A program made the translations under genes and the position numbers. A stretch of 30,557 nucleotides of DNA from a virus. The stretch is taken from positions 1 to 30,557 of IMG/VR virus record IMGVR_UViG_3300043431_000397, one strand, 5' to 3'. The first letter of the stretch is position 1. The number at the start of each line of letters is the position of its first letter. The notes under the pieces were generated by a model, which was not told where the DNA came from, ran no database searches, and saw only the letters and a program-made list of their open reading frames with translations. Shown here one piece after another: positions 2,538 through 23,456 of this stretch.

Positions 2538-2741
2538 TTATCGGTAGTCCAGTAATTTATCGGTTGCCTGGGTCAAGTACCGGACATCTTGCTTCAGTAA
2601 CGTTTCCAGCGTCCGCCGTAAGGTCGTACCCAGTTTGGCCGCGTTCTTGGCAATGCGTAACACTCGATGCGGATCGCCGCCCATATGGATAGCAATACCA
2701 ACCTCTGTCATTGTGCTGAATAAGGATTGCGGTTCGGTCAT
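2538..2741 (-). CDS. Small basic protein of unknown function
   Basis: 67 residues, mostly predicted helix (MGGDPHRVLRIAKNAAKLGT, then TLRRTLETLLKQDVRYL). The start ATG overlaps the TGA of the upstream membrane-protein gene as ATGA, indicating coupled translation. No family recognised. It is the last gene before the promoter at 2501-2529. Confidence 0.65.
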   Translation of the reverse strand: MTEPQSLFSTMTEVGIAIHMGGDPHRVLRIAKNAAKLGTTLRRTLETLLKQDVRYLTQATDKLLDYR

Positions 2742-2968
2742 TTATAATTCCGCAGATTGAATATTTTTAAACGGTTAAATACCCTACGTAAAATATAGGT
2801 GCGAATTAAACTCGCAATAGTAAATATACCGACTATTGTTGCGCTACTCGATAGCGGCAAATTAACGCCATATAAAGGCAATACGGTTACTTGCAGTATT
2901 AAAGATATTAAATACCCTACGGCTAAATTAGTGATACTTTCAAATAGGCTACCTATTTTAGTTTGCAT
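2738..2968 (-). CDS. DUF7220-like two-helix membrane protein
   Basis: 76 residues. Two hydrophobic segments are visible: about residues 12-34 (NLAVGYLISLILQVTVLPLYG) and about 40-62 (SATIVGIFTIASLIRTYIL), ending in a basic tail (RRVFNRLKIFNLRNYK), so a membrane hairpin with the charged end in the cytoplasm is likely. The pattern S..ESitN...Gy, LPL.G, iGiFT..S..R.Y.LRR.F matches a small phage membrane protein family I know as DUF7220; function unknown. Its ribosome site (GGATAG) is formed by the last codons of the upstream intein-like gene, so the two are translationally linked. Confidence 0.8.
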   Translation of the reverse strand: MQTKIGSLFESITNLAVGYLISLILQVTVLPLYGVNLPLSSSATIVGIFTIASLIRTYILRRVFNRLKIFNLRNYK

Positions 2969-2975
2969 ATTATTA

Positions 2976-3980
2976 CTATCCGTCTACGACTATGTTTTGA
3001 ACCAATAAACTACCTGACGAAGTGCGAATATCCCATAGCCTTCCGGTATAGGGTGCCACGACGACTTCTTTCACAGGCAGCAATATGTGGTAACCCATCG
3101 CGATTGAATTGCGCCGACTGCGCGCAGTCCTTTGATGACCGCCCATTAAGACGTGCGCTTCACTGGCCGGTACATTCATCGTGTAGCGTATTGATGCCTT
3201 AAGGCGTTTCACTATGCACAGAGACATAAACACCGAATATTGCGCGGCCAGGCTTTGTAATTGGAAAGCCATAGCTTCGTTCGGCGGCATAACAATTATC
3301 GTGCCCTTGCTTTTCCCATCAGCAACCGTGTGGCCGATAGCGTCGAGGTATCCCCGTAAAAACTGAAGTGCTATTTGGGGTGTGGCGTTTCGATATATGA
3401 AATCCGGTATGCGTCGGGAAGTTGTTCCTCCGAACCAAGCGTTGAAGTTATCGGCCAGCACAGACCCGCCAAAATAAATCGTTTCGGCGATGTCGTTGTA
3501 TACCACGTTGTCAAAATTGTCCTTACAGGCGCGTAGCAAAGTCGCGACGATGCTTTCGCTTTTACCGGCAACATCGATAGCGCAAAGCGTTACCGCCCGC
3601 CCGCGTGCCGCGTACCAACCTAGCATATACACAAACCCTGGAGGGGCGTGTTCGGTAAGGTCCGTCATAGGCGGCGTCTTTACTTGCTTATCCAAAAGCA
3701 CGTAATCGCCTTTGTAAAGTTCCTGCGCCTGCTTCCAGTTATATACCCCGTCGCAATACGTTAATAGCGCGTTATCTGGGTTCATTCGTAGCGGTAGGGT
3801 ACCCGAAATTTTAATTTCCGCGATGCGGGTTGCGGCGTATGAACTGACATGCGCTACCCTGACCGGTACGCCATCTTCAGACAATACCTGCGATCCTACC
3901 CGCACATCGCGGGCGCAGATAAAACCGGATTGGGTGTTTATTAAAGCGGTGTCCGGTAGGCCGCAATCCCACGCGCTCAT
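2976..3980 (-). CDS. Free-standing, degenerate intein (Hint domain plus inactive-looking LAGLIDADG endonuclease)
   Basis: 334 residues with almost no extein: MSAWD, then the intein N-terminal splicing block starting at Cys6 (CGLPDTALINTQSG) and DVRVGSQVLSEDG. The Hint fold continues through GTLPLRMNPDNALLT and ELYKGDYVLL. Residues about 117-127 (VYMLGWYAARG) and 207-216 (FLRGYLDAIG), with WFGG...RRIPDFI between them, form a DOD-type LAGLIDADG endonuclease. The C-terminal block is GRLWDIRTSSGSLLVQNIVV, followed by DG and a stop. Key residues are changed: the TxxH of block B reads NPDN, both LAGLIDADG acidic residues are replaced (ARG, AIG), the terminal HN is DG, and no Cys/Ser/Thr follows. 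It therefore should not splice in the normal way or cut DNA. Strong own ribosome site (GGAGG); ATGA overlap with the preceding gene. Possibly domesticated as a regulator, or a relic. Confidence 0.85.
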   Translation of the reverse strand: MSAWDCGLPDTALINTQSGFICARDVRVGSQVLSEDGVPVRVAHVSSYAATRIAEIKISGTLPLRMNPDNALLTYCDGVYNWKQAQELYKGDYVLLDKQVKTPPMTDLTEHAPPGFVYMLGWYAARGRAVTLCAIDVAGKSESIVATLLRACKDNFDNVVYNDIAETIYFGGSVLADNFNAWFGGTTSRRIPDFIYRNATPQIALQFLRGYLDAIGHTVADGKSKGTIIVMPPNEAMAFQLQSLAAQYSVFMSLCIVKRLKASIRYTMNVPASEAHVLMGGHQRTARSRRNSIAMGYHILLPVKEVVVAPYTGRLWDIRTSSGSLLVQNIVVDG

Positions 3981-4219
3981 TGTCGCCTCCGGATTTTGTT
4001 TTCATCGGTGCCGATAAAACCAAGGTTCTTGCCGCAGCCTTTGCATATCGCGGCACAAGACCTCGTTTCGTTAACACCAGCGGTGTGTTTGCAGCGTCGT
4101 TGTTTAAGCAGCTCTTTTAGATTTAGGTACGTAACTGCTCCGAAAACGATTAGCATTACCAAAACCGCAAGGGCGGCCACAAATAGTTTCAGCCCGAAAT
4201 AGAGGTTTACAAAGAACAT
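3977..4219 (-). CDS. Small single-pass membrane protein with C-terminal Cys pairs
   Basis: 80 residues from the ATG at 4219; the frame also allows a start at 4282 (101 residues), but no ribosome site precedes that one and it would overlap the upstream gene by 76 bases. One long hydrophobic helix (LKLFVAALAVLVMLIVFGAV, about residues 10-31) is followed by a basic region and a cytoplasmic-type tail with C..C pairs (SCAAICKGCGKNLGF), which may bind zinc. Start choice is uncertain. It overlaps the next gene by ATGA. Confidence 0.6.
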   Translation of the reverse strand: MFFVNLYFGLKLFVAALAVLVMLIVFGAVTYLNLKELLKQRRCKHTAGVNETRSCAAICKGCGKNLGFIGTDENKIRRRQ

Positions 4220-4398
4220 GTTCGTGTACCCATAAAATATTTTGTGCGTGATATTTGCTGTTTGTGTCCGAGTTTCGGCCATCCGTAACTTGGGCGAAGG
4301 TGATACGGTCGCGCTTTGTATTCGCGCTTCAAGCGTTTTACAGGTATCTGGCTTACTACCGCTGCCAGGCGGATTCGTTTTGCTGCTTTACCGTTCAT
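4207..4398 (-). CDS. Small, very basic protein of unknown function
   Basis: 63 residues, rich in Lys and Arg (AAKRIRLAA, VKRLKREYKARPYHLRPS), possibly nucleic-acid binding. The start is well supported by AACGAGGAAAAAAT, the standard local leader. It is the first gene downstream of the left 37-bp repeat array, whose end lies only about 15 bases upstream of the start codon. No family recognised. Confidence 0.65.
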   Translation of the reverse strand: MNGKAAKRIRLAAVVSQIPVKRLKREYKARPYHLRPSYGWPKLGHKQQISRTKYFMGTRTCSL

Positions 4399-4412
4399 AT
4401 TTTTTCCTCGTT

Positions 4413-4776
4413 GGGTCGCTCTTGGTCAATGGTTGTGTTCTTGCGCAGTGGCTCGCTTCTGGTAGATGTGTCAGGTATGTTTTAAAGGCGCGCGTTATAC
4501 CCTCCTGGGTTTGTTTAGGTTCAAAGGCTCACTTTCTTTTATCGGGTCCGGTAAATATTATTGGTTCGCATTTCTCACATGGGTCTGTTAGTTTGTCATG
4601 GCGCGATAAGGGCTTACGTTACTGCTTGAGTTACATGGCGCACTCGTATCGGGCGGGTCGGTTTCATATTTCGGGTTCACTATTTTTCTCAGTGTCTGTT
4701 TTCATAGGGCGGCGCGCTAGTATCAATGCGGGTCTGGCTGTTCCAATCGGCGCGATAATTCAATTTGGGTCTGTTA
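4413..4776. repeat. Left array: 10 degenerate direct repeats with 37-bp period
   Basis: The otherwise gene-free 384 bp after the IS110-domain gene is built of units starting at 4413, 4450, 4487, 4526, 4563, 4600, 4638, 4674, 4711 and 4749 (steps 36-39, mostly 37). On the + strand each unit reads roughly GGYKCRCT, ten variable bases, GGGTCTGTTA, then about nine variable bases. Box 1 examples are GGCTCACT, GGTTCACT, GGCGCGCT; box 2 examples are GGGTCTGTTA (4581, 4767), GTGTCTGTTT (4692). Unit 4600 is the weakest. The spacing of the two boxes (18 then 19 bp) means a GG-led box recurs about every 18.5 bp. The + strand is G/T-rich, so the leftward RNA would be C/A-rich and weakly structured. A long open frame on the + strand crosses it, but its product looks non-biological and the 37-bp period is not a codon multiple. 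Confidence 0.85.
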
Positions 4777-4782
4777 ATGGTC

Positions 4783-5670
4783 TTAGCCGTACGGGGCCGG
4801 ATGACTATGCACCAGGCCGAGTTTTTCTTCAGCGTATGAAGGTCGGACTTCTAGGCCTTCCAACCGGCGCCAGAAAGTCCAAAGGTCGGCCAAAAGCATC
4901 TTAATCATATAGCGCTTGGCCATTGCGTTGCGGTGCCCCTTGCTTTTGTCCTTATGTTTCGGGTGGTTCTCCAAGCGGTTTTTGTAATCGGTATAGGTGT
5001 CCTTGTACGGGCCGCCCAATTTGATAATCACGTCGGCCAAAACACCCACCATTTTGGTTTTCAGGAACGGGTTGTACGTGATCCCCACGGTGTCGACGAC
5101 TTCGCCGGCACGGTTGGTGTATTGTTTCGGTACCAGGTGGGCTTTACGCATGCTGCGGCCTTCGCCCACTATATCGCCGTTGTCGTCTCGGGTAACGACA
5201 TCTAACCCAACGTATTTCCACAATGCTGATATGGAATTACACTTGTGGATGTCAATTTCGGAAAGCATAACGCCGGCCATCAGAGGTCCAACGCCACGCA
5301 CGTTGACCAGGTATTCGGTCCATATCGGTTCGCGTGTGAGTTCGTCCGCAATGGCTTTTTCGTGTACGGCCTCGGCTTCCAGTTGCCGCTCGTACGATTC
5401 GATCAACGCCAGTTCGGCTCGGGTGGTCAATAACTTGCTGTCGGATTTAAAGTCTTTGGTAATGCGCTTTACCCCGTCGGTGACGCGTTTGAATTCTTTG
5501 CGCAAGTCGTCGAGTATTTCGGCGGCTTCTTTCACCTCTTCTTCGGCTTGCGAAGAGTGGAGCCCCAGCTTCACACGGAAGGCAGCAGCGATACGGTTGC
5601 CGTTCTGAATCCGCAATTGTTGCAGATCGTAGAAAGAGCGGATGCTTGCACGGATCATTGGGTTTGACAT
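4783..5670 (-). CDS. Protein with IS110/IS116/IS902-type C-terminal transposase domain but no DEDD domain
   Basis: 295 residues. Residues 1-115 are a charged helical region with coiled-coil character (EEEVKEAAEILDDLRKEFK, RQLEAEAVHEKAIADEL). From about residue 122 comes VRGVGPLMAGVMLSEI, the helix-hairpin-helix opening of the Transposase_20 (IS110 C-terminal) domain, then SALWKYVGLDV, GEGRSMRKAHL and YNPFLKTKMVGVLADVIIK, ending with MAKRYMIKMLLADLWTFWR. The N-terminal RuvC-like DEDD domain of IS110 recombinases is absent, so it is not a complete IS110 transposase. Ser173 in GEGRS might correspond to the IS110 catalytic serine, but I cannot verify this alignment. Good ribosome site (GAGGAACTAAAA). 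Both sides of the gene are occupied by 37-bp-period repeat arrays, and the gene upstream is a ClpX-like AAA+ ATPase. Phages carry related stand-alone proteins annotated as transposases; their role is unknown. Confidence 0.75.
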   Translation of the reverse strand: MSNPMIRASIRSFYDLQQLRIQNGNRIAAAFRVKLGLHSSQAEEEVKEAAEILDDLRKEFKRVTDGVKRITKDFKSDSKLLTTRAELALIESYERQLEAEAVHEKAIADELTREPIWTEYLVNVRGVGPLMAGVMLSEIDIHKCNSISALWKYVGLDVVTRDDNGDIVGEGRSMRKAHLVPKQYTNRAGEVVDTVGITYNPFLKTKMVGVLADVIIKLGGPYKDTYTDYKNRLENHPKHKDKSKGHRNAMAKRYMIKMLLADLWTFWRRLEGLEVRPSYAEEKLGLVHSHPAPYG

Positions 5671-22254: not shown

Positions 22255-22263
22255 TGGCCTTCC

Positions 22264-22392
22264 GGTCTGCGGTCTGCGGTCTGCGGTCTGCGGTCTGCGG
22301 TCTGCGGTCTGCGGTCTGCGGTCTGCGGTCTGCGGTCTGCGGTCTGCGGTCTGCGGTCTGCGGTCTGCGGTCTGCGGTCTGCGGTCTGCGGT
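22264..22392. repeat. Tandem array of the 7-bp unit GGTCTGC (about 18.4 copies)
   Basis: 129 bp of perfect 7-bp repeats begin ten bases after the stop of the gene at 21721. As 7 is not a multiple of three, all frames stay open on both strands and create spurious frames with a seven-residue period. The copy number should be prone to slippage. On the other strand the unit reads GCAGACC. Confidence 0.95.
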
Positions 22393-23081: not shown

Positions 23082-23456
23082 ATGGCCACCAACATAATTG
23101 ATTTTTCAAAAGGGACGCTCCGCAATCCCACGCCGAATCCCAATCCCAATCCCAATCCCAATCCCAATCCCAATCCCAATCCCACGCCCGCGCCCAATCC
23201 CACACCCAATCCCACACCCACGCCCGTAAACGAGGGGTTACTACTCATTCTCGAAGATTTACTGCGACGCACAAAGACAGGCGAGTTGCGGACGTTAGTG
23301 GTGCTAGGACTTTGCGATGATAAGGGGATTATTGATGGGTGGTGCTTAGACCCGTATTCGCCAGACAATAGCTATCCGTACGTACATATCGGAGGATTGG
23401 CGGCGCTGCAACGGGATTTTATGAACGCTACAATACCGCATCGCGAACAGGACTAA
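23082..23456 (+). CDS. Small protein with an Asn-Pro repeat, first gene of the late operon
   Basis: 124 residues. After MATNIIDFSKGTLRNP comes a low-complexity Asn-Pro/Thr-Pro stretch (about residues 15-49), encoded by tandem hexamers AATCCC, acting as a rigid extended linker. The C-terminal domain (LLLILEDLLRRTKTGELRTL, VVLGLCDDKGIIDGWCL, YVHIGGLAALQRDFM) looks like a compact alpha/beta unit; 'r.GEl..lvvlg..ddG....w......y.higgl..l..d' is a pattern I have seen in small phage proteins of unknown role. The start is well supported by AACGAGGACCCT. It precedes the membrane peptide and TerS. Confidence 0.7.
   Translation: MATNIIDFSKGTLRNPTPNPNPNPNPNPNPNPNPTPAPNPTPNPTPTPVNEGLLLILEDLLRRTKTGELRTLVVLGLCDDKGIIDGWCLDPYSPDNSYPYVHIGGLAALQRDFMNATIPHREQD
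23134..23182 (+). repeat. Hexanucleotide tandem repeat AATCCC inside a gene
   Basis: About eight near-perfect copies encode alternating Asn-Pro. Length changes by slippage would add or remove Asn-Pro pairs without breaking the frame. Confidence 0.85.

Follow-up and report, generated by a model that had tools for sequence, protein, structure and literature searches.

In the genome of a tailed phage, a former LAGLIDADG intein, one of the self-splicing, DNA-cutting selfish proteins, is now an independent gene that lies outside any host gene and has no hidden exteins. The product consists of the five residues MSAWD followed by a full Hint and LAGLIDADG intein, which runs from Cys6 (Cys1 of the intein) to the final residue (Table 1), and it is almost certainly of intein origin with both activities lost. 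The window, i.e. the whole stretch of DNA analysed here, is an IMG/VR virus record of 30,557 bases, the large terminase of which is ~44% identical to those of Burkholderia phages (DC1, BcepIL02). The coordinates, strand, 334 codons and GGAGG site given for the gene by the original prediction are all correct when checked against the sequence. Codon adaptation of the gene is weak and its codon bias uninformative, promoter scans of the region gave no score above shuffles, and none of the PADLOC defence families was matched.

Table 1. Features of the intein gene and its immediate neighbours in the window
Feature	Positions	Strand	Remarks
Degenerate intein gene, stand-alone, 334 aa	2976..3980	(-)	ATG 3978-3980, TAG 2976-2978
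GGAGG ribosome-binding site	3986..3990	(-)	5 nt 5' of the intein-gene ATG; from sequence
MSAWD, five-residue N-terminal extension preceding Cys1 (N-extein position)	3966..3980	(-)	Alignments begin at Cys6
Block A, residues 6-26	3903..3965	(-)	Cys1 (C6) retained
Block B, TxxH replaced by N67-P-D-N70	3771..3782	(-)	From alignments
LAGLIDADG motif 1, YMLGWYAARG	3600..3629	(-)	Acidic residue replaced by R126
R189 in place of conserved endonuclease Lys	3414..3416	(-)	From alignments
LAGLIDADG motif 2, FLRGYLDAIG	3333..3362	(-)	Acidic residue replaced by I215
Blocks F/G, YTGRLWDIRTSSGSLLVQNIVVDG	2979..3050	(-)	Block F His replaced by G323; His-Asn replaced by D333-G334
Upstream gene, small membrane / zinc-ribbon-like protein, phrog_14388	3977..4282	(-)	5' end uncertain
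Downstream gene, complete DUF7220 protein	2738..2968	(-)	Begins 7 nt past the TAG; not a C-extein

Intein identity of the 334-aa protein

The gene shows sequence homology to inteins over its whole length from Cys1 onwards. The 334-aa protein scores 68 bits against a profile for which 15 phage inteins, but not the query, were used, whereas none of 2,000 shuffled versions of it exceeds 3.4 bits, and hhalign against a profile of seven inteins aligns residues 6-332 with a probability of 99% (E 5e-18); by this homology, Hint blocks A, B, F and G flank a LAGLIDADG domain. No significant match to the protein was obtained with tblastn among phages and plasmids, the best match in 2.3 Gb of phage records (E 0.2) being the TerL intein of the crAss-like cr118_1, which covers exactly residues 6-332. 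The weak matches to Intein_splicing in Pfam (E 0.009) and to the Pho RadA intein in the PDB (E 0.17) are consistent with intein identity. With the crAss-like terminase inteins (cr118_1, cr131_1, cr7_1 and L136) the protein shares the Hint and LAGLIDADG layout and aligns end to end at ~20-25% identity, whereas those inteins reside with exteins inside the terminase gene and have all nine catalytic residues.

The presence of two LAGLIDADG helices in a single-chain fold is indicated by the sequence profile and by a model of low confidence that matches inteins and I-DmoI with Z values of up to 10.7. This AlphaFold model, computed with four locus sequences, has a mean pLDDT of only 49.6, best in the endonuclease domain, and over residues 101-289 retrieves the PI-SceI and TliVMA inteins, I-DmoI and WhiA with Z ~8-11; because its alignment contains intein and LAGLIDADG relatives, we use it as supporting evidence only. 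A single-sequence model (pLDDT 35) was set aside.

Replacement of the catalytic residues

Comparison of nine catalytic columns across 17 inteins reveals that eight are replaced in the phage gene (T67N, H70N, D126R, K189R, D215I, H323G, H333D and N334G), leaving only Cys1. All 17 compared inteins have Asp, Glu or Asn at both acid positions and Lys at the third endonuclease position, and the eight lost codons require at least 14 nucleotide substitutions. Of the residues used for splicing (Cys1, TxxH, His-Asn and the +1 nucleophile), Cys1 is the sole survivor; no C-extein exists to supply a +1 nucleophile. R126 and I215 stand in place of the two catalytic acidic residues of an active LAGLIDADG homing endonuclease. 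As judged from these residues and from established intein and LAGLIDADG chemistry, both splicing and cleavage are very unlikely.

The block assignments are identical in three accurate MAFFT modes, and HMMER and hhalign agree with them for the blocks covered; we disregarded a fast MAFFT mode, in which blocks A and B were misplaced. Thus, the assignments made in the original prediction are upheld by alignment with phage inteins, and the losses that it listed (block B TxxH, the terminal His-Asn, the +1 nucleophile and both LAGLIDADG acids) are borne out by alignment with the 17 inteins, catalytic residues being restored in none of the accurate alignments. Two further losses that it had not listed are those of the His in block F and of the conserved endonuclease Lys.

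Neighbouring genes

The TGA of the upstream gene overlaps the ATG of the intein gene as ATGA, and two TAA codons come after the intein gene's TAG, so that both flanks lack exteins, with the DUF7220 gene lying directly downstream. A frameshift joining the gene to real exteins, which would have overturned its stand-alone status, is not seen, the flanking frames being unrelated genes. Together with the eight replaced catalytic positions, these unrelated flanks support the proposal of a stand-alone intein that has lost both sets of residues. The phage's own terminase contains no intein.

Other features of the window were also recorded. A degenerate array of 37-nt period, at about 4400-4790 (-), follows a PF02371/IS110-like gene at 4783-5670 (-), and homologues of this gene in four further stretches (L044, L045, L046 and L048) are followed by clean arrays of 36-nt period that consist of 9-nt boxes and 9-nt variable spacers; 24 A-boxes are present in stretch L048. 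With tblastn, the PF02371/IS110-like gene of the window matches Salicola phage CGphi29, which has been named as a TasH (TIGR-Tas) locus (PMC12045711), and a TIGR-Tas system probably adjoins the intein gene. A perfect tandem repeat of the 7-base unit CGGTCTG (18.6 copies) is located at 22263-22392 between the two gene clusters, and an imperfect repeat with 6- and 18-base units at 23123-23225, in or near the ORF 23082-23456, encodes an Asn-Pro run.

Distribution of the gene

The gene has been seen in a single metagenomic record, and searches of viral, phage, plasmid and prokaryote collections, some of them with short exact patterns that diverged relatives may escape, returned no orthologue. Pattern searches of IMG/VR and of GTDB genomes likewise gave none; an alignment-guided search returned only the crAss-like terminase inteins and one other intein. 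The phages nearest by TerL have no match to the gene, which is therefore accessory. A profile survey of 398 genomes from one bacterial phylum revealed no stand-alone degenerate intein, the three short frames obtained being a Hint domain in a larger protein, the intein of a split polymerase-like gene and a short Hint protein.

The parental insertion site was not found, either in the phage's own intein-free terminase or by an R-x-W-D pattern search of viral contigs. The idea that MSAWD is an N-extein left by the terminase nuclease motif (R-x-W-D) was rejected, as all three pattern-search matches were due to chance, and so was SAWD in related phages as a former insertion site, where the frames that contain it are unrelated, two belonging to a DNA-polymerase-like protein. 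Separately, one phage record (G044; stretches L050 and L055) was observed to carry two inteins, namely an endonuclease-bearing one, hosted by a glycosyltransferase-like protein, and a mini-intein, hosted by a portal/head-morphogenesis-like protein.

Probable constraint on the fold

The phage gene retains 12 of 14 conserved non-catalytic columns but only one of nine catalytic ones (Fisher p 0.0007), a contrast that draws on 17 inteins, some of which are related to one another, and on 23 columns. With a looser column threshold, 12 of 16 structural positions are kept (Fisher p 0.0036), and the contrast holds in all three accurate MAFFT modes. Each of the 17 inteins used for comparison retains six to nine of the nine catalytic residues, with a structural share similar to that of the phage gene. 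When three real intein genes were mutated randomly until only one catalytic residue was left, stop codons arose in every run (0/1,200 stop-free, both thresholds counted); 75% of the structural residues were kept in 7/600 runs at the matching threshold and 85% in 1/600 at the 0.75 threshold. The simulations and the structural retention thus argue, indirectly, that selection acted on the fold while the catalytic residues were being lost or afterwards. Since the fold-determining positions are kept and the catalytic ones are not, and since the frame is intact and operon-packed, we infer that selection has probably preserved the fold beyond the loss of both activities.

A dead relic, that is, an intein without exteins or activities that drifts neutrally and is still open by chance, would be in keeping with the single occurrence and accessory position of the gene, its weak codon adaptation, the lack of orthologues found and the absence of an obvious use for the surviving Cys1. 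We consider it unlikely, however, as structural residues are retained as in active inteins despite eight catalytic losses, neutral simulations reaching an equal catalytic loss always had stops, and the operon packing is intact, with the start overlapping. Thus, the interpretation in the original prediction holds in part: a stand-alone, doubly inactivated intein is supported, and so is the view that it is not simply decaying, given the selective catalytic loss, the structural retention and the intact, tightly packed frame. The DNA-binding role that it also proposed is a tentative possibility.

Possible roles of the protein

Most likely, the former LAGLIDADG intein has become an independent phage gene for a non-catalytic binding protein. 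Without cutting or splicing, the endonuclease domain would bind a DNA site, or the Hint/endonuclease pair would bind a protein partner, and such binding may regulate phage or host genes or shield a site. A binding role, to DNA or to protein, appears simplest once splicing and cleavage are gone, and as an explanation of the whole we lean towards an ex-intein kept as a fold-maintained, non-catalytic binding protein. The net charge of the product is not unusual and thus uninformative; DNA binding is therefore indicated by the fold alone. The scaffold alone is no proof of DNA binding, because in WhiA the HTH binds DNA and the dead LAGLIDADG domain has an altered DNA-binding surface (PMC3781837). 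More narrowly, a free-standing regulatory or immunity protein, with splicing and homing disabled and the whole fold binding a specific DNA site, is somewhat doubtful.

Recruitment for a protein-protein role, as an adaptor or inhibitor rather than for DNA binding, would fit the retention of the entire Hint part in the phage protein and the observation that the dead LAGLIDADG domain of WhiA alone gives no DNA footprint and may use protein contacts (PMC3781837); we regard such a role as rather unlikely. The protein might instead act in immunity or as a decoy: by binding the empty site that a related homing intein targets, such as one within a terminase gene, it would block cleavage there. This would account for the lost cleavage with a DNA-binding scaffold retained, phage terminase genes being favoured intein targets (PMC5050341), and MSAWD, by our own comparison, loosely resembles the terminase nuclease motif. 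With the phage's own terminase free of an intein, no parental insertion site found and only chance matches in the search of viral contigs for inteins after R-x-W-D, we regard a decoy as improbable. The remaining alternative is a free-standing homing element of the HO/WHO type whose altered active site would still allow DNA cutting. In its favour, HO and WHO, which lack exteins and motif G, are nucleases that derive from inteins and stand alone as genes (PMC7282813), and the fold is shared; yet Arg and Ile occupy the positions of the two LAGLIDADG acids, and Arg that of the conserved Lys, where 17 of 17 compared inteins keep Asp, Glu or Asn and Lys, making continued cutting highly improbable.

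The non-catalytic binding protein that we favour can be set beside several known systems. Yeast HO and WHO are likewise stand-alone intein-derived genes with no exteins and no splicing, but are eukaryotic endonucleases with a C-terminal zinc finger (PMC7282813). The phage gene is equally free of exteins on both flanks, whereas its protein stops at the last residue of the intein, without a zinc finger, and the outline of motif G, absent in HO and WHO, is present with its residues replaced; the residue loss argues against an endonuclease activity like theirs. WhiA (DUF199) also has a LAGLIDADG domain without catalytic residues (fold match Z 9.3), but has no Hint domain, carries a DNA-binding HTH and is encoded by a cellular gene of Gram-positive bacteria (PMC3781837). 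No such C-terminal HTH is evident in the phage protein, in which the C-terminus aligns with intein blocks F/G and matches no Pfam HTH family. Inteins with an endonuclease domain that is present and inactive are described as inteins, i.e. inside a host protein (PMC8966425), whereas the phage gene also lacks splicing residues and exteins. In laboratory tests, terminase inteins of mycobacteriophages spliced, and target cutting was seen for both of those in which it was assayed (PMC5050341). A search of the open literature found no description of such a phage gene, which is not proof of absence.

The closest known kinds are yeast HO/WHO, as stand-alone intein-derived nucleases, and WhiA, as a dead LAGLIDADG regulator; among such domesticated kin, HO has kept its nuclease. 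What appears new here is a whole free-standing intein in which, as judged by residues, both activities are lost while the positions that hold its fold are retained, a combination suggesting that the phage reuses the dead intein protein for something else. A full intein that survives as a gene despite this double loss would add a new end point to the domestication of selfish elements, here in a phage gene amenable to direct expression and testing.
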